48,498 nt of DNA from Lachnospiraceae bacterium (GTDB lineage Bacteria; Bacillota; Clostridia; Lachnospirales; Lachnospiraceae). The DNA is taken from the NCBI GenBank assembly GCA_024691125.1, contig JAILNV010000114.1:1-48498 (forward strand), in the 5' to 3' direction. Below are positions 6,042 through 30,507 of this stretch, piece after piece; within the stretch, counting starts at the first letter, position 1, and each line of letters opens with the position of its first letter. A model generated the notes under the pieces. That model was not told where the DNA came from, made no database searches, and saw only the letters and a program-made list of their open reading frames with translations. A program made the position numbers and the translations under genes.

Positions 6042-7934
6042 CTATCCATAAAAACATACTTTTGTTCCCGGTTTACTCTTGCTTTCATAAGTACACTTAT
6101 CAGCTCTTTTATAGAGCTCATCAAAGCTGAAGGTATCATCGGGCTTATAGAAGGATACCCCCACACTGATATCTATCGCATTATCACCCATTTCCTCTAT
6201 CCGCACTGTTGCCAGACGTTCAAGGAAACGGTCCACTATTATGCCGCCTCCGCCGTCCCGGCTTAATACAAGAGGTATATAGGCTGCAAACTCATCTCCC
6301 CCAAGCCGCATTACTATATCATTTTCCCTGAATGTACTCTTCATACAGTTTGCTATGGCAATAAGCACCTTGTCGCCTACATCATGCCCGTAATTGTCGT
6401 TTATTGATTTGAACTTATCAACATCCAACAGCATGAACATGCCGCCTTCACCTTCTACAAGCATCTTACGTATCTTGCTTTCCCCGCATCCACGGTTATT
6501 TATCCCTGTCATTCTGTCGGTTTCGGACAGATATAACAGCCTGTCACGAGCCCGTTTCTCCTCGTCAATATACTCTATCAGCCATATGACGCTTATAAGA
6601 TCACCCTTTTCATCACGTTTATCAGCCACAAAATGCCCACGGCACCATATCCCCTTATGATTCATGAATTCAATCGCCAGAGATCCGGTATTCCTCATCC
6701 TGTCACTCAATGTATCCAGATTAGTGAATTCAAACAGTTCAGCCTTGGAACGCTCATCCGTAAGGTACGCCACAAGATTGTGAAGAGTATTTCTGGCATC
6801 AGATCGTTTTCCCGCTATCATCCCCCTTAGATCGCCGGAAAAACAGCTTATTTCCTCAAATGTATCTGCCACAAGATCCATCTTATACATACAGACATAT
6901 ATCCCTGCAACAGTCTGGAGATTGGAATTATAATTGTCCGCCTCGATCCGCCTCAGGGTCATCAACGTTAGCACGGCAAATATGATCAATATCCCGACAA
7001 TAGCAATGATTATGCTGTCACGTGCGGCCCTGAATACCCTTCCAAAGGTCTTTGTTGCATCCGCAACATTCAGCACATACCATCCCCCGCCTATTTCACG
7101 CGCAAATACATATTCATTATTCCCGTTTTTGTTTATCTCAAACTGGCCGCTTCCGTTTATAAGCAGCCCTTCCGCAATCCCCTTTCCTGCGCTGTTTTCA
7201 TCCTTAAGATAATTAAGTCCTTCCTGAGACGGATCGGAATGTGCTACCACCGTACCGTCCTCATCAAGGACAATAATACTGTATCCCTCCGTTTCGGAAG
7301 CTTCAAGGCCGTCCATGACCGCGTTAAGGTCATTCATTTTAAAATCAACCGAAATAACACTTTCACCATCCGAAAGCATCATGGCCATCGTCATTATCCT
7401 GTCGCCGGTCATCTCATCCACATACGGCGCAACATATGTCATTTCCCCATCTGCAGCCACCGCATCGATGTACCAGGGACGTTTCGTAGGAACGTAATCA
7501 TCATCAGGTATCCATCCCGAACCGTCAATATATTCTCCTCTTATGTATCCGTATATCCCTGTTGTGGCCGTATCGCTTTCATCTTCGTAGGTCTCGGATT
7601 CCTTGACAAAGAATTCATGTATATCATCATTGGATGCATCATCCTTGAACATATGCTCAACATTGTATGCCATATATTCCATGATATGCACGCCCGGTTT
7701 TAAACGGTCCTCGAACTTGAGAGCATACTGTCTTACTTCATACTCTCCGCTGTATTCTATATTGTCTCTGGCCAGTCTGAACACCATACGGAAATTAAGA
7801 AAGATTATCACCAAGAGAAAAACAGGCAGTAAAAGAAAGAGAAGAACCTGTCTTAAACCCAGTCTGCGTCTGAAATCCTTAAACGTTATACGATATTTAA
7901 TTTTTCCGCTATCATCATTGGTTTTCAAGATCAA
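6042..7934 (-). CDS. Membrane diguanylate cyclase with extracellular dCache sensor
   Basis: This 630-aa protein should make c-di-GMP from two GTP in response to an extracellular ligand. Order: cytosolic N-terminus, membrane helix near residues 30-50 (VLLFLLLPVFLLVIIFLNF), a large outer dCache-type sensor with KRPWYIDAV near residue 150, a second helix near 310-330 (IIIAIVGILIIFAVLTLMTL), a PAS-like linker, and GGDEF at the C-terminus (LDVDKFKSINDNYGHDVGD, then RLGGDEF). An REND four-residue RxxD inhibitory site precedes the active loop, so product inhibition is likely. The start is TTG at 7934, overlapping the EAL gene stop as TTGA; no ATG in frame is near. This overlap implies translational coupling with the phosphodiesterase, and the xylosidase follows 60 bases later. 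Confidence 0.9.
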   Translation of the reverse strand: MILKTNDDSGKIKYRITFKDFRRRLGLRQVLLFLLLPVFLLVIIFLNFRMVFRLARDNIEYSGEYEVRQYALKFEDRLKPGVHIMEYMAYNVEHMFKDDASNDDIHEFFVKESETYEDESDTATTGIYGYIRGEYIDGSGWIPDDDYVPTKRPWYIDAVAADGEMTYVAPYVDEMTGDRIMTMAMMLSDGESVISVDFKMNDLNAVMDGLEASETEGYSIIVLDEDGTVVAHSDPSQEGLNYLKDENSAGKGIAEGLLINGSGQFEINKNGNNEYVFAREIGGGWYVLNVADATKTFGRVFRAARDSIIIAIVGILIIFAVLTLMTLRRIEADNYNSNLQTVAGIYVCMYKMDLVADTFEEISCFSGDLRGMIAGKRSDARNTLHNLVAYLTDERSKAELFEFTNLDTLSDRMRNTGSLAIEFMNHKGIWCRGHFVADKRDEKGDLISVIWLIEYIDEEKRARDRLLYLSETDRMTGINNRGCGESKIRKMLVEGEGGMFMLLDVDKFKSINDNYGHDVGDKVLIAIANCMKSTFRENDIVMRLGGDEFAAYIPLVLSRDGGGGIIVDRFLERLATVRIEEMGDNAIDISVGVSFYKPDDTFSFDELYKRADKCTYESKSKPGTKVCFYG

Positions 7935-21733: not shown

Positions 21734-22144
21734 TTACAGCTGAACTGCCACCATAACATATCCGTTCCCTTCCAGCTCTACACTAAAGCTTAATTTACCG
21801 CCCAGATTACTCTTCACCTTTCCAGTGCTTTTGCCGTCCAGCAGTACTTCATATTCAGTGTCTTCTTTTACGCCAACCGTGATCTGTGCATCCTCATTAC
21901 CGGATACCGTAAAAAACACACCTTCATTCGTGGCATGAAAGCCATGTACACTGGTTCCCGGAACAGATTCATATACAAACATTCCGTCACGTTCGAGCTT
22001 GGTTATTTCCCTGAATGTTTTAACCTTATAGATGTTACCTGCACATTCATGATCATCCTTCTTGGCTTTCTCATTAAGCTCATAATTTCCAAAGCTTAAC
22101 CCCCCGTCAGCCTCCGTCCTTATCAATTCCGTTACAACTGCCAT
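21734..22144 (-). CDS. Conserved Lachnospiraceae protein, often labelled 'endosialidase'
   Basis: The 136-aa protein (starting AVVTELIRTEADGGLSFGNY) belongs to a small cytosolic family common in Lachnospiraceae and usually called endosialidase without visible support: no sialidase Asp-box or catalytic set is present. The first half contains YKVKTFREITKLERDGMFVYESVPGT in two pieces, and the second half is beta-rich (AQITVGVKEDTEYEVLLDGK, then GKLSFSVELEG), like a small beta sandwich. It lies between clpC and radA with 150 bases of upstream spacer. Good AAGGAG ribosome site. Function unknown. Confidence 0.8.
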   Translation of the reverse strand: MAVVTELIRTEADGGLSFGNYELNEKAKKDDHECAGNIYKVKTFREITKLERDGMFVYESVPGTSVHGFHATNEGVFFTVSGNEDAQITVGVKEDTEYEVLLDGKSTGKVKSNLGGKLSFSVELEGNGYVMVAVQL

Positions 22145-22294: not shown

Positions 22295-24745
22295 TTATTC
22301 CTGTGCTGTAATCTCTATTTCATTGTTCTTAAGGCTTACCTTCACCTTATTGTTCTCTTTTATCCTGCCGTCGAGCACCGCCTCGGCAAGCTTATCTTCA
22401 AGCATCGTCTGTATTGCTCTTTTAAGCGGTCTGGCTCCGAACTTCTTATCAGCACCCTTTAGAGCAATATGCTTCTTAACCTGATCCGTGACTGTCAGAG
22501 ATACATTCATCTCTTCCTTCATCCTTGAAGCGAGCTGCCCCGTAAGAAGAGTGACTATTTTCTTCATATCATCCTGGCCGAGAGCCCTGAAAACTATTAT
22601 CTCATCTATTCGGTTTATGAATTCGGGTTTAAAAATCCTCTTAACCTCTTCCATAACACCCGACTTCATCTTATTGTGGTCTGCCTCTTCATTCTCTTCT
22701 GTGACAAATCCAAGGTGCTTAGGCTCAATTATCCTGTTTGCGCCGGCATTTGAAGTCATTATGATAACGCAGTCTTTAAAGGATACCTTGCGCCCGTTAG
22801 AATCGGTTATATTACCCTCATCAAGTACCTGAAGCAATATATTGAAAACATCCGGATGCGCCTTCTCTATTTCGTCAAACAAAACGACCGAATACGGATT
22901 GCGTCTTACCTTCTCAGACAGCTGTCCTCCTTCTTCAAAGCCTACGTATCCCGGCGGAGAACCTATGAGCTTACTTACAGTATGCTTCTCCATATACTCG
23001 GACATATCCACTCTGATCATTGCATTCTCAGTACCGAACAGTACCTCTGTCAAAGCTTTGGACAGCTCCGTTTTACCTACACCGGTAGGACCCAGGAAAA
23101 GGAATGAACCTATAGGTCTGTTCTTCTCCTTAAGGCCTACTCTGCCCCTCTTGATCGCTCGTGATACAGCAGATACCGCTTCATCCTGCCCGATAACACG
23201 CTTCATAAGGGTCTTCTCCATACGATTAAGCTTGGCGCTCTCACCCTCTTTAAGCTTAGCAACGGGTATCCTCGTCCACTGCGCTACCACATCAGCTACC
23301 ATATCTGCCGTTACTGTCGCCTTATCTTCAGCTGCGCTTAAATATTTCTTCTGCTTACGTTTATACGTTTTCTCAAGCTTTGCCTGTTCCTTCTTGAGAT
23401 CTCCGAAAAGAGCAAGGTCATCATCTCTTAATGCCTCTTCCTTCTGCTCTTCTATCTCATCAAGCCTGTCCTTAAGCTCATCTATTGCAGCAGGTGACTC
23501 AAGTGTGCTTATTCTCAGCCTGGCCGCCGACTCATCCATAAGATCTATGGCCTTATCAGGAAGAAATCTGTCATTTATATATCTGTCCGACAGCCTTGCA
23601 CAGGCTTCAAGCGCTTCATCCTCATAGACAACACCGTGATGCCTCTCATATGCATTCTGTATTCCTTTTAGTATAGCTATCGTATCGTCAACCGAAGGAG
23701 GCTCAACGCTTATCGGCTGAAATCTCCTCTCAAGTGCCGCATCCTTCTCTATATACTTCCTGTACTCATCATGGGTTGTCGCTCCTATGATTTGTACTTC
23801 ACCTCTTGAAAGTGAGGGTTTAAGTATATTGGAGGCATCAAGAGACCCCTCTGCGCCTCCTGCTCCTATCAATGTATGGAGCTCATCTACGAATAAAATT
23901 ATATTCTTATTCTCGGTAACCTCATTTATAACCTTCTTAATCCGTTCCTCGAATTCTCCCCTGTACTTGGTTCCCGCTACCATCGATGCCATATCAAGAG
24001 TAAGCAGGCGCTTACCCCGGATAGTCTTTGGAACTGCCCCCTCCGCAATCCTTCTTGCCAATCCTTCAACAATAGCCGTCTTACCTACACCCGGTTCACC
24101 CACAAGACATGGATTGTTTTTTGTACGTCTGCTCAGAGTCTGGATAATACGCTGTATCTGAGTCTCCCTTCCTATCACAGGATCAAGCTTTCCCTGTTCA
24201 GCAAGTCTGGTAAGATCGCGGCTGTATTTATCTATGAGCATCTGGGATCCCGGCATTCTTGATGATCCCTGTCTCATATTCTGGATCTGTTCCTTGTATT
24301 TGTTTACATCCTCACCTATGGCCACAAGGATATCCACATACAGCTTCTGTATATTTACGCCCAGGGTATTGAGCAGCCTTACCGCAAGATTGTCATCATC
24401 CTGTATCATTGCGATCAGCAGATGTTCAGTACCCACTCTGTCCTCATCCATCGAAGCAGCAATATCCTCTGACATCTCAAGCAGCAAGGCAAAACGCGGA
24501 GTATAACCATCCCTGTCCAAAACCTTAACATCCGCTTCAGGCGCTATTTGCTGATCAATAAGCTCCCGTACCTTCTCGGACGTAACTTCATTCTTCTTAA
24601 GCACTTCATATGCAAGCGAAGTGCCCTCTGCCATAAAAGCAAGCAGAAGATGCTCGGATCCAACATACCCATGATGAAGATTCCTGGATAAAGCTGACGC
24701 GATATCCAGGATCATCCTTGCTTTTTCCGTATATTCCATTGCCAT
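22295..24745 (-). CDS. clpC: ClpC-type AAA+ protease ATPase
   Basis: ClpC unfolds proteins and feeds them to the ClpP peptidase. The 816-aa protein has the normal layout: two N-terminal Clp repeats (1-145), first AAA module with Walker A GEPGVGKTAIVEG near 210 and Walker B LFVDELHTLIG, a middle coiled-coil M domain (about 410-470), second AAA module with GPTGVGKTELSKAL near 545 and VLFDEIEKAHPDV, and the C-terminal D2-small domain. In Bacillus it is encoded after ctsR-mcsA-mcsB; here those genes are absent and the upstream neighbour, 15 bases away, is a large disordered membrane protein. A weak hairpin ATGTGG/CCACAT lies downstream near 22244-22263. Confidence 0.96.
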   Translation of the reverse strand: MAMEYTEKARMILDIASALSRNLHHGYVGSEHLLLAFMAEGTSLAYEVLKKNEVTSEKVRELIDQQIAPEADVKVLDRDGYTPRFALLLEMSEDIAASMDEDRVGTEHLLIAMIQDDDNLAVRLLNTLGVNIQKLYVDILVAIGEDVNKYKEQIQNMRQGSSRMPGSQMLIDKYSRDLTRLAEQGKLDPVIGRETQIQRIIQTLSRRTKNNPCLVGEPGVGKTAIVEGLARRIAEGAVPKTIRGKRLLTLDMASMVAGTKYRGEFEERIKKVINEVTENKNIILFVDELHTLIGAGGAEGSLDASNILKPSLSRGEVQIIGATTHDEYRKYIEKDAALERRFQPISVEPPSVDDTIAILKGIQNAYERHHGVVYEDEALEACARLSDRYINDRFLPDKAIDLMDESAARLRISTLESPAAIDELKDRLDEIEEQKEEALRDDDLALFGDLKKEQAKLEKTYKRKQKKYLSAAEDKATVTADMVADVVAQWTRIPVAKLKEGESAKLNRMEKTLMKRVIGQDEAVSAVSRAIKRGRVGLKEKNRPIGSFLFLGPTGVGKTELSKALTEVLFGTENAMIRVDMSEYMEKHTVSKLIGSPPGYVGFEEGGQLSEKVRRNPYSVVLFDEIEKAHPDVFNILLQVLDEGNITDSNGRKVSFKDCVIIMTSNAGANRIIEPKHLGFVTEENEEADHNKMKSGVMEEVKRIFKPEFINRIDEIIVFRALGQDDMKKIVTLLTGQLASRMKEEMNVSLTVTDQVKKHIALKGADKKFGARPLKRAIQTMLEDKLAEAVLDGRIKENNKVKVSLKNNEIEITAQE

Positions 24746-24760
24746 ATACAGTAATACCTC

Positions 24761-27634
24761 TTATTTTACATCAATAAAATTGAACTCAAAATCATCATCG
24801 AAATCAGCTGTGTTGTACATAGGCTGCTGAGAGTATTCCTGGTACTGCAATCCATCCTGCTGATAACCCTGGCCGTAACCATTCTGACCGTAGCCCTGAT
24901 TCATATATCCCTGCTGGCTCTGATTATAGCCTGCGCCCTGTGAATACTGCTGATAGCTCTGATCATAACCGCCCTGGCCGTAGCCCTGGTTCATATATCC
25001 CTGCTGACCCTGGTTATAGCCTGCATTCTGCGAATACTGCTGATACCCCTGATCATAACCACCCTGACCGTAGCCCTGATTCATATATCCCTGCTGACCC
25101 TGGTTATAGCCCATACTCTGTGAATACTGCTGATAGCCCTGATCATAACCGTTCTGCTCATAGCCCTGGTTCATATATCCCTGTCCGGCCGAAATATCCT
25201 GACCACGGTGGGATCTGCCTCTGCGTCTTTCATCAGCAGCAGGTGCTTCAGAGTACATATCCTCGTCTTCATCCATCATACCGCGTCGACCACGCCTGTC
25301 TTTCTTTTCTACTCTTCCCGGCACCTTTTTCTTACTTCTTCTGAAGAAACTGAAGCCTTCATCCTCATCTTCATCTTCTTCATCCTCATCTTCCATAATG
25401 TCATCCGGCTCGTACATTCCTCTACGTCTGCCATAGGAAGCCTTCCCGGCTCTTTCGTCCCTGATCTCCTCTCTCATTGTGGGAGCCGGTGCCTGTTCAT
25501 CGGCATAATACATCGGGGCTTCTCCCCTTCTCTGTCCGGAAACCGGTGTCTTCTTATCTTCATAATATGCCGGAATATCGCCCTTCTTCTGCATGGGCGG
25601 CTGCGTCTGTTTATCGGCATAATATGAAGGCACGTCATCTCTCTTCTGTACAGGAGCCGGAGCTTTAGCTGGCATATTGGAAGGAATCACCGGAGTAGCC
25701 TTCGGAATAGCTCTGTTCTTTGATGCAGCGGCCGCTTCTGCTATAGCCAGCGCACCTGTATTGCCTGTTCTTACCGATGCTGCAGCTGCCGTCTTCTTGA
25801 TAGACGCTGCTTCCTGCTTGGATATTGCTTCACCTGTTTTAGAACTTATCACAGGTGAATCCGTTTCTCCGATCACCGGTTTATCAATATTTTTATCCTT
25901 ATCCTTATTCTCAGATCCGTTCTTTGCTTCAATTTCACTGTTTATCCTGTATCTTGACGGAAGTGCGGATGTGTTGTTCCCTACCGGTCTTCGTGAATCG
26001 GAAGATGCATTCTTCACTACACTTTCCATTTCAGACCAGTCTATTGCCTGCGTCTGGGCGATCGGCTGGTTCTTGCCTTTTGATCTTTCCCTGCGGGCTC
26101 TGGGATTGAGGACTTCTGATGAATCCGTATTTTCCTGCTGTGCCGATGACTTAACACCCTTCTTTTCCGGAGTGGGTTTTACGTATTCCTTCACATCATC
26201 GTCGTCATCTTCATCTTCGTCTTCGTCATCTTCGTATTCTTCGTCTTCTTCGTCGTCATCCTCCTCATCCTCGTCCTCATCATCGTACTCATCGTCTTCT
26301 TCATCATCATCTTCATCGTACTCGTCATCTTCATCATCATCTTCATCTTCGTCTTCAACTTCAACGGATGCGATCCGACGTCTCTGCTGCTGGGCACTTC
26401 TTCGTATTTCTCTTGGATCTATCTGAATATCATCCTCTTCATCCTCATCATCGTCTCTTCCCGATCTTACAGCTAGGACAATAACTATTATAAGAAGGAT
26501 CAGGGAGATCACACCGAGTGCACATATAATAATAAGTCTCAAACGCATGGGCTTTTCATATTTTGCAGCCGCTGCTTCTGTTGCCGCTTCCGTGATCGGC
26601 ATCTGATTTCCTTCATCATCCACAGCCGTTCTTATAACCTGAAGATAACGCTGATATGTGCCTTCCTTCTGATCATACAGATACCATCCTTCATTTCCCT
26701 CAGAACTTATTGCATAAACAAGGAAGAAATCCTGCGCCGAAACATTACCGTCACTGTATGCAGGCTGTGCTTCTTCCGAGGCAGTGCCCTCACCCTGAGC
26801 GTTATCTGTGATCATATACGCTTCAAGTGTCTGATCATTCCACATAAGTGTGGCTTTTGTGAAATTAAGCGGAACCTCAACGTTTTTGGGTGCCTTGAGA
26901 ATTATTATGAACTTATTCTCTATTCCCCTTATCATCCTGAAATCGGTAAGTTCACCTGTATTTTGATCTATCACGCAGAAGCCGCCGGTATTGGTAGCTT
27001 CATCAGTAACATATACAAGCAGTATATCTCCCATATCAAACTGAGCGGCTTCTATGGTCGTACCACTGTAAGCAGCAGTTGTCTTATGGAACAGTTCCGG
27101 CATCATCTCATCGGGAAACACAGTGGATATTGTCTTGGAACCATCCAAAGAAGCAACAGTACCGGCTGCCACCCCTGTATCTGTGGTTCCGGTCGCAGTC
27201 GCAGATGCTGCTGCCGCCGCAGTATCTTCTCCTTCAACATTTATGGTTGCGCTTCCGGTAGCGGGATCTGCTCCGTCTCCGTCAAGAACCGCCGTTACAT
27301 ATACCTCTGCAGGACCGCCCGACAGTATTGTAAATGTTATGGTTGCTTCGGGATCCGTGAAAGTCAGCTTGCCTCCGCCTCCGCCATAGGTCTTATCACT
27401 CTCAACTACAGAAAGACGGTTCTCATCATATTCAACGGATATTTCCGGTGCTTCCGCACCATCGCCCGCCCCCTCTGTCTTATAGGCAATAATACAGGTA
27501 TCTCCCACAGCCGCGGTTTCTTTGTCTGCCGCCACAGTAACAGTCCCGGCAGCGAATACCTTAACAACCGGAAGAATAAGGAATAACCCTGTCATCAATG
27601 CCGTTCCCAATAATTTAACTCTCGTTCGTGCCAT
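24761..27634 (-). CDS. Membrane-anchored protein with acidic and prion-like cytosolic tail
   Basis: Not a recognised protein. Order in 957 aa: signal peptide (1-29, ending VFA-A); an outer beta sandwich of cohesin-like character (about 30-130); an Ala/Thr linker; a second extracellular region (about 155-345); one membrane helix (about 367-391, [21 protein letters not shown]). The long, apparently unfolded intracellular part has a tract of almost only Asp/Glu (about 425-482), a Ser/Ala/Lys-rich stretch, three copies of Q(K/R)(R/K)(D/G)(D/E).P.YYAD, another acidic patch, and a Gln/Tyr/Gly/Asn tail of 30-residue repeats containing [15 protein letters not shown] start. It lies 15 bases before clpC. 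The tail could form condensates, scaffold partners, or be a Clp adaptor or substrate; this is inference. Confidence 0.85.
24855..25183 (-). repeat. 90-bp tandem repeats encoding the prion-like tail
   Basis: The anchor TCATATATCCCTG recurs at 24901, 24991, 25081 and 25171, exactly 90 bases apart, giving about 3.7 copies. Each unit encodes 30 residues rich in Gln, Tyr, Gly and Asn. The copies differ at scattered codons, mostly third positions, so the array is not brand-new and the reading frame is under constraint. Confidence 0.9.
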
Positions 27635-27717: not shown

Positions 27718-30507
27718 CTACTGATTTCGCTGTACATATATGGTATATGTCCTTAAGTTGCCATTCTGTGCCTTACATACCACAGTGATCGTATTCGTAC
27801 CTACGTTAAGCTCTACAGTTCCCAATCCGCCAATCGATGATGTGTTTGCAACAGCGGTGGCGCCAATATTGATCATGCCCACACTGTTGTCAACTGTCAG
27901 ATAATATGTATCCGTTGAAGGCGCGAATACAGGCGCAATCGTCAGTCCGTCTACCCAGAGACCTGACAGATAGTTGTTAGGATTCGATTCACTCGTAGGC
28001 TTCTCGCAAGGTGTATCAGGCATATTATAATAGTATGGAATCCTAAAAACAAGGGTTGAATTATCGTCAGTGTAAGCTTTTTTCATTCTGGCAGATTCAG
28101 ATGACGCTGCCTGGATATTACTCATATACTGATGTGAGTATATTCCGTTAGTCTTGTTGACAACATTAAACTTCTCGAAATACAGGGTATTCTGTCCTCT
28201 GTTTATATATCTGTCGGCAAGATATTTCGCACTTCCCAGTATAGACCTGTACCTTGTATTCCATGGTCTGCAGAACCCATCATCATTTCCTTTTGCATAT
28301 ATAAGACCGTTTATTATGGGAGTTCTTCCGTTCGCCGCAAAAGCTCCGATATTAAAATAGTTGAAATAGCCTTCATATCCCGGAACCGTGCCCGAAATGC
28401 TCTGCGAACGTCCGTACAGGCCCTGCTCCTGAATGATCCTTGTCGCAAGATGATATGGGCTTATTCCGGCTTCTCTTGCCGCATCTGTTATAGCATTTAT
28501 ATAATTTCTCTCCACTCCGTCGGTATCCATGAACGCAGAATCAATAAAAGTTCCTTCTGCTATATTCTTAACACCTTCTTCGTTCTGGTATTCGAGACAG
28601 TCAAGCTTTTCAAACTGATATATGCCGCTTTCTGTCAGGAAGTTCCTGGGATCCATATAGTATGCGATAAGCTCGGGCGAAGCGGATGCCCATGTACCTC
28701 CGTCGAAACCGTACCAGGTATTGTTACTCCAGTTATATGCCTGCGGTGCTGTTGATTTCCATGATGATATACTGTTCTTGGCGACCAGGTTCTTTCCTAC
28801 GGAGCACTCCGCAACAACAGCTTCCATCCACTCAAGTCCGGTTTCCACCGTTTCGAACTGCCAGTAAGGATGCTTCTCATGCAGTGCCCTCAGGTTTGCT
28901 TTGTAGGATTCGGGAAGCCTGCTTATGGAATCCTCAAAATCCTTATCCGAGGTAGGCTTCGTATTCTGTACGGTTGCTATTACATTTACAAAATCAGCAC
29001 ATACATATCCTTTCCTGTCATAACCTTTAACCGTAAAGCTTACATAATACCATTTGGCACCGTCGCTTCCGGTCACCTCTCCGAGAATGTTCAGCCTGTG
29101 TCCCGAATTAAGCTGTTCAACAACTGTTCCGTTCACTGCGCTTTCCCTGATCCTGACGCCGTATCCCTTAACCATCGCCGTCATGGCATCGGTGTAATCC
29201 GTCACATCATTTTTTTCCAGTTTGACATAATCGGCGATCATAAACCCTCTGGTTTCCGATCCGCCTACCTTGTAGCTTATTTCATACCACCATGTTCCGT
29301 CTTCAGTCTGTCTCTCATTAAGTACATGAACTGTGCTTCCCGTGCTCAGCCACGTGATTATCTGTCCGTTCCCCGGTGTTTTTCTCACATTTACATTTAT
29401 CCCGTTCACGGCACCGTTTTTATTAACTTCCGTGGGTTCACTCTGGATATCCTCTTTTTTATCCTTTTCTTCTACCTTATCCGTCTCTTTTGCGCTGTTC
29501 TCTGAAACAGAAACGGAGTTACCTGTTTCCGTCGCCTGCGCAGTGACGTTTTGGGTAACTCCTTCCACAAAGTCAGATCTTATATATCCCGTCTGTGGTG
29601 TCATGTCGCTGATGAAAGAAATCTTATACCATACATTCCCATCACTTCCGGCCATCTGTTCAGTAACCGTGACCGAACGTCCTGTAGATACAAGGCCTAT
29701 CACATTTCCGTCAACGGCCTTCTCTCTTACATTTACGCCGGTTCCCTTGACAACACCCACCTGAACGCCTGTCGATGTATTGTTCGCCACAGAGGTTGTG
29801 GTTTGGGCGGATGCGGCCGGTGCTTCGCTCTGCTGTTTGGAACCGACTTCCGCCGTCACGGTTCCTTTTGCCTTGATCAGATCCGACCGTATATATCCCT
29901 TATGTATGATGCCATCCCGGCTGTAGCTTACCGAATACCACACCTTTCCGTCATCCCCGGTTGACATGCTGAGAAGATCGACTTCGGCATCCTGCTTAAG
30001 GCACATCTGCAGATCCGATGTAGTAGACGGTGACTTACGCATTATCGCAACATCCACGATAACCGTTCCTGCAGCGCCGCTTCCCTTATTGCCCGCCGCA
30101 GATGCATCGCCTTTCTGCGTATTTGCCGCTGCATCCTTATCCTTCTTGTTATCGGTTGCACTTACCGCAACCTTCTCCTTGGATTTATTGACCAGATCCG
30201 ATCTTATATACCCGGTGCTGTCTCCTACCTTGATCTGATACCAAAGCTTGCCGTCGGCTCCCTTCTTCTCATCGACCACCGTAACCGGCTCGTCCTTTCG
30301 CACTCCGAAAGCAAAGGAAGAGTTTGTTGATGCCTCTTTCCTCACTTTCCCGCTCGAGCACGTTACAGTCCCCTTCACCGCAGTATATGCATATGTACAA
30401 TGTGAACCTGCCAAAACCATCGTTACAGTCAACGCAGGCAACATGAGATAGCGTAGCATGCGGCCACCCTCAGACCGCATTCTATTCGCACACGTATAAG
30501 AACGCAT
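27718..30507 (-). CDS. Secreted cell-wall N-acetylglucosaminidase with five SH3b repeats
   Basis: The 929-aa exported protein should cut peptidoglycan glycan strands. After a signal peptide (hydrophobic LMLPALTVTMVLAG) it has five bacterial SH3 repeats at roughly 44-105, 143-210, 248-313, 358-425 and 438-505, each with a (G/K)(L/V/T/K)WY and GYIRSD-like core, separated by Ser/Thr/Lys-rich linkers. A glucosaminidase domain of LytD/LytG type follows (about 540-830) with the presumed catalytic Glu in ATRIIQEQG and YFNYFNIGAF; a cadherin-like beta sandwich closes the protein (NYLSGLWVDGLTIAP, TYTIYVQR). Start 30507 has AGGGGA; an alternative ATG at 30459 has GAGG and gives a tidier signal peptide. 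A consensus promoter lies about 100 bases upstream. Confidence 0.88.
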   Translation of the reverse strand: MRSYTCANRMRSEGGRMLRYLMLPALTVTMVLAGSHCTYAYTAVKGTVTCSSGKVRKEASTNSSFAFGVRKDEPVTVVDEKKGADGKLWYQIKVGDSTGYIRSDLVNKSKEKVAVSATDNKKDKDAAANTQKGDASAAGNKGSGAAGTVIVDVAIMRKSPSTTSDLQMCLKQDAEVDLLSMSTGDDGKVWYSVSYSRDGIIHKGYIRSDLIKAKGTVTAEVGSKQQSEAPAASAQTTTSVANNTSTGVQVGVVKGTGVNVREKAVDGNVIGLVSTGRSVTVTEQMAGSDGNVWYKISFISDMTPQTGYIRSDFVEGVTQNVTAQATETGNSVSVSENSAKETDKVEEKDKKEDIQSEPTEVNKNGAVNGINVNVRKTPGNGQIITWLSTGSTVHVLNERQTEDGTWWYEISYKVGGSETRGFMIADYVKLEKNDVTDYTDAMTAMVKGYGVRIRESAVNGTVVEQLNSGHRLNILGEVTGSDGAKWYYVSFTVKGYDRKGYVCADFVNVIATVQNTKPTSDKDFEDSISRLPESYKANLRALHEKHPYWQFETVETGLEWMEAVVAECSVGKNLVAKNSISSWKSTAPQAYNWSNNTWYGFDGGTWASASPELIAYYMDPRNFLTESGIYQFEKLDCLEYQNEEGVKNIAEGTFIDSAFMDTDGVERNYINAITDAAREAGISPYHLATRIIQEQGLYGRSQSISGTVPGYEGYFNYFNIGAFAANGRTPIINGLIYAKGNDDGFCRPWNTRYRSILGSAKYLADRYINRGQNTLYFEKFNVVNKTNGIYSHQYMSNIQAASSESARMKKAYTDDNSTLVFRIPYYYNMPDTPCEKPTSESNPNNYLSGLWVDGLTIAPVFAPSTDTYYLTVDNSVGMINIGATAVANTSSIGGLGTVELNVGTNTITVVCKAQNGNLRTYTIYVQRNQ

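Follow-up and report, generated by a model that had tools for sequence, protein, structure and literature searches.

Single-pass membrane proteins of Lachnospiraceae as putative receptors for a neighbouring GH73-type wall glucosaminidase

Directly ahead of clpC, the window analysed here (48,498 nucleotides of contig JAILNV010000114.1, from the Lachnospiraceae genome GCA_024691125.1, which is 89% complete in 300 contigs) encodes a membrane protein that joins a cohesin-like domain outside the cell to a long, repeat-rich tail predicted to lie in the cytosol, which raises the question of what such a protein would hold on either side of the membrane. The original prediction, made from the sequence alone, placed the essence of the protein in its prion-like tail, overlooking the GH73-type gene upstream, a conserved domain between the cohesin-like domain and the transmembrane helix (D2) and a conserved C-terminal motif. 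The answer favoured here, which we rate as somewhat probable, is that it is one of a family of single-pass Lachnospiraceae membrane receptors, many of which would hold a GH73-type glucosaminidase on the outside of the membrane via a catch of the cohesin-dockerin type, with the tail docking or clustering inside; confidence is moderate in the outer half of this mechanism and low in the inner half.

Ectodomain, upstream hydrolase and a proposed cohesin-dockerin link

The AlphaFold2 model of the ectodomain and transmembrane helix (predicted local distance difference test, pLDDT, 82; predicted template modelling score, pTM, 0.48) gave 217 Foldseek matches at E ≤ 0.001. Cohesin modules of Clostridium perfringens (2w1n, 2jh2, 2vo8; E 2.6e-6 to 2.8e-5) ranked first and the top four rows were all cohesin modules, S-layer and antibody Ig-like chains following close behind. 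On this model the ectodomain has the cohesin beta-sandwich fold; it is termed cohesin-like, as no Pfam family, PF00963 included, reached its cut-off for the window protein. The signal peptide was called by eye on the Ala-x-Ala pattern of cleavage sites, and hydropathy revealed only one strongly hydrophobic segment after it (Table 1). Together with the cohesin-like ectodomain, these topology signs support a type I orientation with the tail inside. The original prediction was borne out in its open reading frame, single helix and outer ligand-type domain, and supported in its cytosolic tail.

The proposed partner is encoded 83 nucleotides upstream in the window, and a homologue of this SH3/GH73 protein (match to the window protein at E ≤ 1e-20) lies upstream in 29 of 34 loci of the same genus. 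At L051 and L057 the upstream gene is present as its SH3 part only; at L037, L041 and L047 it is split into two open reading frames, by frameshift or assembly error. Across the family, 48 upstream enzymes were collected, comprising 10 of the 29 found in the genus and a further 38 from outside it, picked by eye as hydrolase-like; the set omits purD, LytR-CpsA-Psr and other upstream genes and contains near-identical species. Its profile matched solved autolysin structures, best of all 6u0o_B (E 3.2e-25), which we take to be the SagB chain, then 6fxo_A and Autolysin E (4pi7_A), and it also matched dockerins of known structure. Since the Pfam Glucosaminidase model matched just one of the 48, the enzymes are described as being of GH73 type.

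A dockerin on an upstream enzyme was first seen at L164, after which twenty further proteins (upstream enzymes, transmembrane proteins and one nearby gene) were scanned. Pfam Dockerin_1 (type I) matched 21 of the 48 enzymes, and a local dockerin profile built from eight of these picked out 21, every one of them in the 38 enzymes collected outside the genus; four of the 21 belong to one genus (g31). Cohesin-like domains were called with an iterated local profile seeded with those of the window protein, L164 and L155, the last two of which match PF00963. Such a domain was present in 58 of the 60 transmembrane proteins with a GH73 gene directly upstream, versus 32 of the 67 without, and the four genus members that lack it (L052-L055) also lack the upstream gene. 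Nineteen genomes have a dockerin-bearing enzyme: exactly one dockerin match was found in 16 of them, and the transmembrane protein holds the sole Pfam cohesin (E ≤ 0.1) in 13, a second, weak cohesin occurring in three others and two in G088. In 12 of the 19, one dockerin and one Pfam cohesin lie in genes adjacent by coordinates, so that neither has another Pfam-visible partner. G088 (L156), with 12 dockerin matches over several contigs, may possess a small multi-enzyme system.

Could the protein instead be an ordinary anchoring scaffoldin of the cellulosome type, displaying plant-fibre enzymes? The available part of a genome survey lists single-cohesin proteins with a C-terminal transmembrane helix as possible cell-associated scaffoldins (PMC11557425), and the 12 dockerins of G088 would fit such a role. 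This explanation is nonetheless very improbable, given that the wall glucosaminidase bears the only dockerin in 16 of the 19 dockerin genomes, that the window genome has no dockerin match and that an anchor would have little evident need of a cytosolic tail hundreds of residues long.

Several results weigh against a receptor that holds its enzyme by a cohesin-dockerin catch. The search of the window genome, 89% complete, returned no dockerin; dockerins were found in just five of 37 genus genomes and in none of the 10 genus hydrolases scanned (of the 29 found). Pfam cohesin at E ≤ 0.001 was confined to 25 of 88 relatives from outside the genus, the iterated local profile could catch other Ig-like domains, and the Fisher value for its association with the upstream gene (1.9e-10) ignores shared ancestry. 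L099 and L111 have a GH73 gene upstream of a transmembrane protein with no cohesin-like domain, and 32 transmembrane proteins, including genus member L051, have the domain without a detected upstream GH73 gene; two dockerin genomes (G344, G414) show no Pfam cohesin. As no dockerin was found in the window genome, we infer rather than observe a pairing there, and the window catch either would use another surface, such as the cadherin-like end of the enzyme, or has drifted or lost its partner.

Beyond the catch, the family is defined by D2. Homologues were found in 32 of 36 same-genus genomes, and 43 of the 49 named loci fetched by profile are labelled Lachnospiraceae, mostly from rumen and gut assemblies, the remainder including Bacterium C-53, Robinsoniella, Roseburia and Agathobacter ruminis. 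Alignments of 26 full-length genus homologues and of 28 diverse homologues place D2 between the cohesin-like domain and the transmembrane helix; in the order, 90 of 392 genomes have it, and 85 of these belong to the same family. Its AlphaFold2 model from a 66-row alignment is confident (pLDDT 89.4, pTM 0.82), and a fold search matched nothing in the PDB at E ≤ 0.001. With a threshold of E ≤ 0.1, matches to any one Pfam family covered at most 3 of the 66 members (best single E 2.4e-4), and those to any one NCBIfam family at most 2. D2 is accordingly considered an undescribed protein domain, without a clear Pfam or NCBIfam family or solved fold.

In the favoured mechanism, the N-terminal cohesin-like domain would be the catch, for which the enzyme bears a matching dockerin in many relatives, and D2, between catch and membrane, probably serves to place the enzyme, to modulate it or to sense the wall. 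The receptor would most likely keep the glucosaminidase near the membrane, where new glycan strands emerge, as SpdC does for SagB, and thereby position glycan cleavage.

A role at the wall is also supported by the SH3 wall-binding domains that lie inside 16 of 88 transmembrane proteins from outside the genus. Some relatives depart from this arrangement. Four proteins missed by the D2 profile (L172, L173, L176, L178), whose genes are flanked by clpC on one side and by the pur region or a contig end on the other, have SH3 ectodomains, one transmembrane helix and a similar C-terminal end, and are probable kin of the D2 family, to which L168 forms a bridge through a weak D2 match (E 3.6e-5). All five are transmembrane proteins with SH3 domains of their own, purD rather than a hydrolase lying upstream in all except L173; in them, the wall-binding domains of the hydrolase seem to have been fused to the receptor. 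L160 (G342, 6656-7807) has two tandem genes with D2 matches, the downstream one with a cohesin match slightly below cut-off. L161 and L162 (family f8) are distant members with EYKPLTPDEFFL-type tail ends, followed by a rhomboid-like gene (by eye).

Table 1. Features of the membrane protein gene and its neighbours in the window (residue numbers refer to the membrane protein).
Feature	Position	Strand	Description	Basis
136-amino-acid gene	21734-22144	-	between clpC and radA
clpC	22295-24745	-	816 amino acids; AAA and Clp_N; begins 15 nucleotides past the stop of the membrane protein gene	Pfam
Membrane protein	24761-27634	-	957 amino acids, ATG start	open reading frame
Signal peptide	27548..27634	-	residues 1-29 (MARTRVK...VFAAG)	sequence, by eye
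Cohesin-like beta-sandwich domain	27230..27547	-	residues ~30-135	AlphaFold2 model and Foldseek; iterated local profile
D2, conserved juxtamembrane domain	26630..27160	-	residues 159-335 (FPDE...FDMGD...LxY...GTYQRY)	alignments and model
Single transmembrane helix	26474..26536	-	residues 367-387	hydropathy 3.55; helix in AlphaFold2 model
Acidic tract	26195..26356	-	residues 427-480 (54 residues: 51 D/E and 3 Y)	sequence composition
Mid-tail conserved stretch	26000..26044	-	residues 531-545	alignment of 26 genus members
YYAD / YYED / YYAD units	25499..25624	-	residues 671-712	sequence
Second acidic run	25358..25393	-	residues 748-759	sequence
Q/G/Y/N prion-like block	24815..25180	-	residues 819-940; four GYMNQGY units, 30-residue period	repeat and composition analysis
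C-terminal conserved motif	24764..24805	-	residues 944-957	alignment, pattern search
GH73-type gene upstream	27718..30507	-	SH3_3 repeats, GH73-type glucosaminidase domain, C-terminal cadherin-like domain; no dockerin match	Pfam, profile

Low-complexity tracts and the C-terminal motif

Inside the cell, the acidic stretch that had been described as about 58 residues of D and E only is real, but it is somewhat shorter and includes tyrosines (Table 1). Its codons are mixed (GAT 19, GAA 17, GAC 11, GAG 6 and TAC 4 over codons 422-489), so it is no plain trinucleotide run. The strongest sequence matches of the full protein in the PDB, to nucleophosmin (query residues 386-506), fall on this stretch and were discounted. 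The repeats reported earlier were confirmed, the YYAD/YYED units beginning at residues 671, 690 and 709 and GYMNQGY at residues 819, 849, 879 and 909, where the DNA has a period of 90 nucleotides with 3.6 copies and 85% matches. Over residues 821-940 the composition is Q 30%, G 22.5%, Y 20% and N 8.3%, which makes the block (38% Q+N) a long Q/N-rich low-complexity region by composition alone; composition likewise suggests that the tail is disordered. Lachnospiraceae are named among the sources of prion-like sequences in a survey of gut bacteria, in the available part of which the window protein was not noticed (PMC12322145).

The prion-like block is a feature of part of the genus. Of its 26 intact members, 15 have a Q/G/Y-rich block and 10 a Q-rich coiled coil (by eye); one, in which the tail is short, has neither. 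In the ClpC tree the 15 are spread over three supported clades, and the 10 group together in a single clade. The highest fraction of Q/N/G/Y/S in any 80 residues is 0.68-0.93 in the 15 and does not exceed 0.51 in the 47 unique members counted as lying outside the genus. The region is thus not conserved family-wide, and the tail as originally described can hardly be the essence of the protein. Although the repeats differ between the three clades (by eye), the Tyr/Gln/Gly composition stays, the richest stretch of 80 residues containing 13-23 Tyr; because composition is kept while sequence has changed, there are hints that it is under selection.

These data bear on two further explanations. According to the first, put forward in the original prediction, the block would phase-separate under the membrane as a condensate scaffold and gather partners. 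Its composition over 120 residues, the retention of that composition in three clades and the presence in the fourth of a coiled coil, likewise a self-association module, speak for this idea; we consider it unlikely all the same, as 11 of the 26 intact genus members lack the block, as do the relatives examined outside the genus, and its 90-nucleotide repeats at 85% matches resemble recent duplication. According to the second, the acidic and Q/G/Y tracts are neutral growth by slippage in a disordered linker in which only length matters. Tail length does range from 238 to 661 residues in the genus (21-661 across the 74 sequences examined), and tracts differ strongly between close relatives: the highest 40-residue D/E fraction spans 0.35-0.97 among genus members, and is 0.95 in the window protein versus 0.53 in L032, the two being 91% identical over residues 1-372. 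Against neutral growth stand the mixed codons of the acidic tract and the persistence of the Tyr/Gln/Gly composition across deep branches, and it remains a possible, if rather doubtful, account.

What is constant in the genus is the C-terminal end. An acidic-aromatic motif, D-[DE]-D-F-x-F-x-[FY]-[IL], was found in 26 of 26 intact members, in which D532 of the mid-tail stretch is also invariant. The strict pattern is satisfied by every one of the 26 genus tails and by 25 of the 47 from outside, against an average of 0.03 in shuffled tails. At the DNA level, 32 of 37 genus genomes contain it exactly once (and all contain the control once); it lies in some of them on a contig other than that of the gene start, the gene being cut there, and therefore is no common tag in the genus. 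At the scale of the order it was found in 30 of 392 genomes versus 34 for the reversed control, so the pattern alone is not selective there; 13 order-scale matches, all in genus g26, read DDDFEFEF. The inner half of the favoured mechanism is further tempered by the fact that the pattern was composed after the sequences had been inspected, is unmet in 22 of the 47 outside members and finds no resemblance in the tails of L153, L156, L157, L161, L162 and L167.

In the receptor mechanism, the tail would be a disordered, length-variable tether, often ending in an acidic-aromatic docking motif for a putative cytosolic partner, and in the genus an inserted self-association module (Tyr/Gln/Gly block or coiled coil) may cluster receptors.

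Gene order around clpC

The membrane protein gene leads directly into clpC in 27 of the 27 genus loci that reach that far, at 0-223 nucleotides (≤86 in 26 of them) and at the 15 originally reported in the window; the remaining seven loci stop within the gene at a contig end. In the genus loci displayed (the window and nine others), the gene is placed, with small departures, between purD and clpC, the SH3/GH73 gene most often intervening after purD, and clpC is followed by a gene of 136-159 amino acids and then radA (pur genes and radA recognised by eye). The 136-amino-acid gene of the window has no Pfam match at E ≤ 0.001, and its position is kept in most relatives displayed.

Such an order would fit a membrane adaptor or substrate of ClpC, whose motif or tail would recruit ClpCP to the membrane so that wall or protein stress outside steers proteolysis inside. 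ClpC itself was found in 344 of the same 392 genomes (E ≤ 1e-200), and of the 70 order rows with a listed clpC place, 47 have the D2 match on the strand of clpC and no more than 8 kb ahead of it, a count that leaves out 17 rows without one, the window's own row and three family f8 rows. The adjacency expected of an adaptor, complete in the genus, is thus partial in the order, where clpC is on a different contig in 21 rows and far off on the same contig in two. Furthermore, the motif is present in L144 and L155 without clpC among the displayed neighbours, the run purN-purD-[GH73]-membrane protein-clpC-radA contains housekeeping genes, so its synteny may be passive, and no CtsR box was found in the window by a scan with a CtsR consensus. 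In Clostridium thermocellum, released RsgI fragments were, for the most part of those tested, cut by ClpXP and none by ClpCP, according to the available part of that study (PMC12203970). Taken as gene order, the link to clpC is suggestive only, and a ClpC adaptor or substrate is improbable.

More speculative still, and distinctly unlikely, is a combined device widespread in the family: the catch would load the glucosaminidase, and the tail, through its motif and in this genus also its Tyr-rich block, would couple wall condition to proteins of the cytosol such as ClpC, so that wall cutting and proteolysis control each other.

Three other functions were considered for the motif and dropped. For an arrest peptide, a conserved C-terminus just ahead of clpC would be apt, but similar ends occur in L144 and L155, where clpC is not among the displayed neighbours, and the motif is acidic-aromatic. 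A ClpCP end-degron would be a fixed end tag, whereas 2-11 residues follow the motif in 51 strict matches; it survives only within the ClpC adaptor explanation. An FtsZ-like tail peptide was also rejected, as the FtsZ-like gene beside L182 ends in ELNIKMPDFMSSIKK, unlike the motif.

Other neighbourhoods were also seen. In L182 (G266, genus g34), the gene lies between ftsZ and clpC, following ftsW-like and divIB-like genes (by eye). In L145, L146, L149, L151, L152, L159 and L160 it comes after a LytR-CpsA-Psr protein (confirmed by Pfam in L145, by eye in the rest), with a glmS-like gene next in some of these loci (by eye).

Related systems and significance

The claim that the protein is unlike known signalling or wall proteins was too strong, as its ectodomain and neighbour resemble anchoring scaffoldins and hydrolase complexes of the SagB-SpdC kind. 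In Staphylococcus aureus, the glucosaminidase SagB is scaffolded by the membrane protein SpdC (LyrA), which sets the site at which glycan strands are cut (PMC10581084 and PMC12272431, in the parts available). Here too, a glucosaminidase of the same structural type is encoded with a membrane partner; however, SpdC is a CAAX-protease-like integral membrane protein, whereas the present one crosses the membrane once and would act as a cohesin-like receptor, with a long tail in the cytosol and a catch of the cohesin-dockerin type. The window protein, with its single transmembrane helix, has no Pfam match to the CAAX-protease family, and its likeness to SpdC is one of function, drawn without sequence comparison.

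FtsEX-PcsB controls wall hydrolases across the membrane and resembles the proposed receptor in relaying a signal or position to a peptidoglycan hydrolase; here, there is no ABC transporter but a single-pass protein with a tail that is probably disordered. FtsZ combines a length-variable, disordered C-terminal linker with a short conserved docking peptide, an arrangement that the tail would share, although the motif differs and FtsZ has no counterpart to the membrane protein context. RsgI anti-sigma factors, as described in the available part of PMC12203970, are likewise single-pass clostridial proteins joining an outer domain to a cytosolic part, but their N-terminal part is inside and most released fragments tested are degraded by ClpXP.

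Single-cohesin anchoring proteins (C. perfringens 2jh2, 2vo8 and 2w1n; the transmembrane class in the available part of PMC11557425) share the surface cohesin fold, the membrane anchor and, in many relatives, the dockerin enzyme; they differ in that the present family would serve a single wall hydrolase encoded next door, where the others display several fibre enzymes, and in that it has the additional D2 and a tail of 21-661 residues (74 sequences examined). In Clostridium phytofermentans, a search with cohesin and dockerin models gave no genomic evidence of cellulosomes, as far as the available part of the report goes (PMC4452783). Among the matches listed in the open-access literature, there was no description of this protein family or of a GH73 enzyme held by cohesin and dockerin in Lachnospiraceae.

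The role for which cohesins and dockerins are mainly known is that of catches in cellulosomes. Genomes with a single dockerin and a single Pfam cohesin, encoded side by side in hydrolase and receptor genes, point to a different use, the placing of a peptidoglycan hydrolase. The case also illustrates how an eye-catching low-complexity tail can be a local embellishment, with more to be learned from the conserved core. Such a receptor would offer a major gut family a defined candidate for the control of a wall glucosaminidase, and would add an undescribed domain, D2, and a new, putative cytosolic docking motif.

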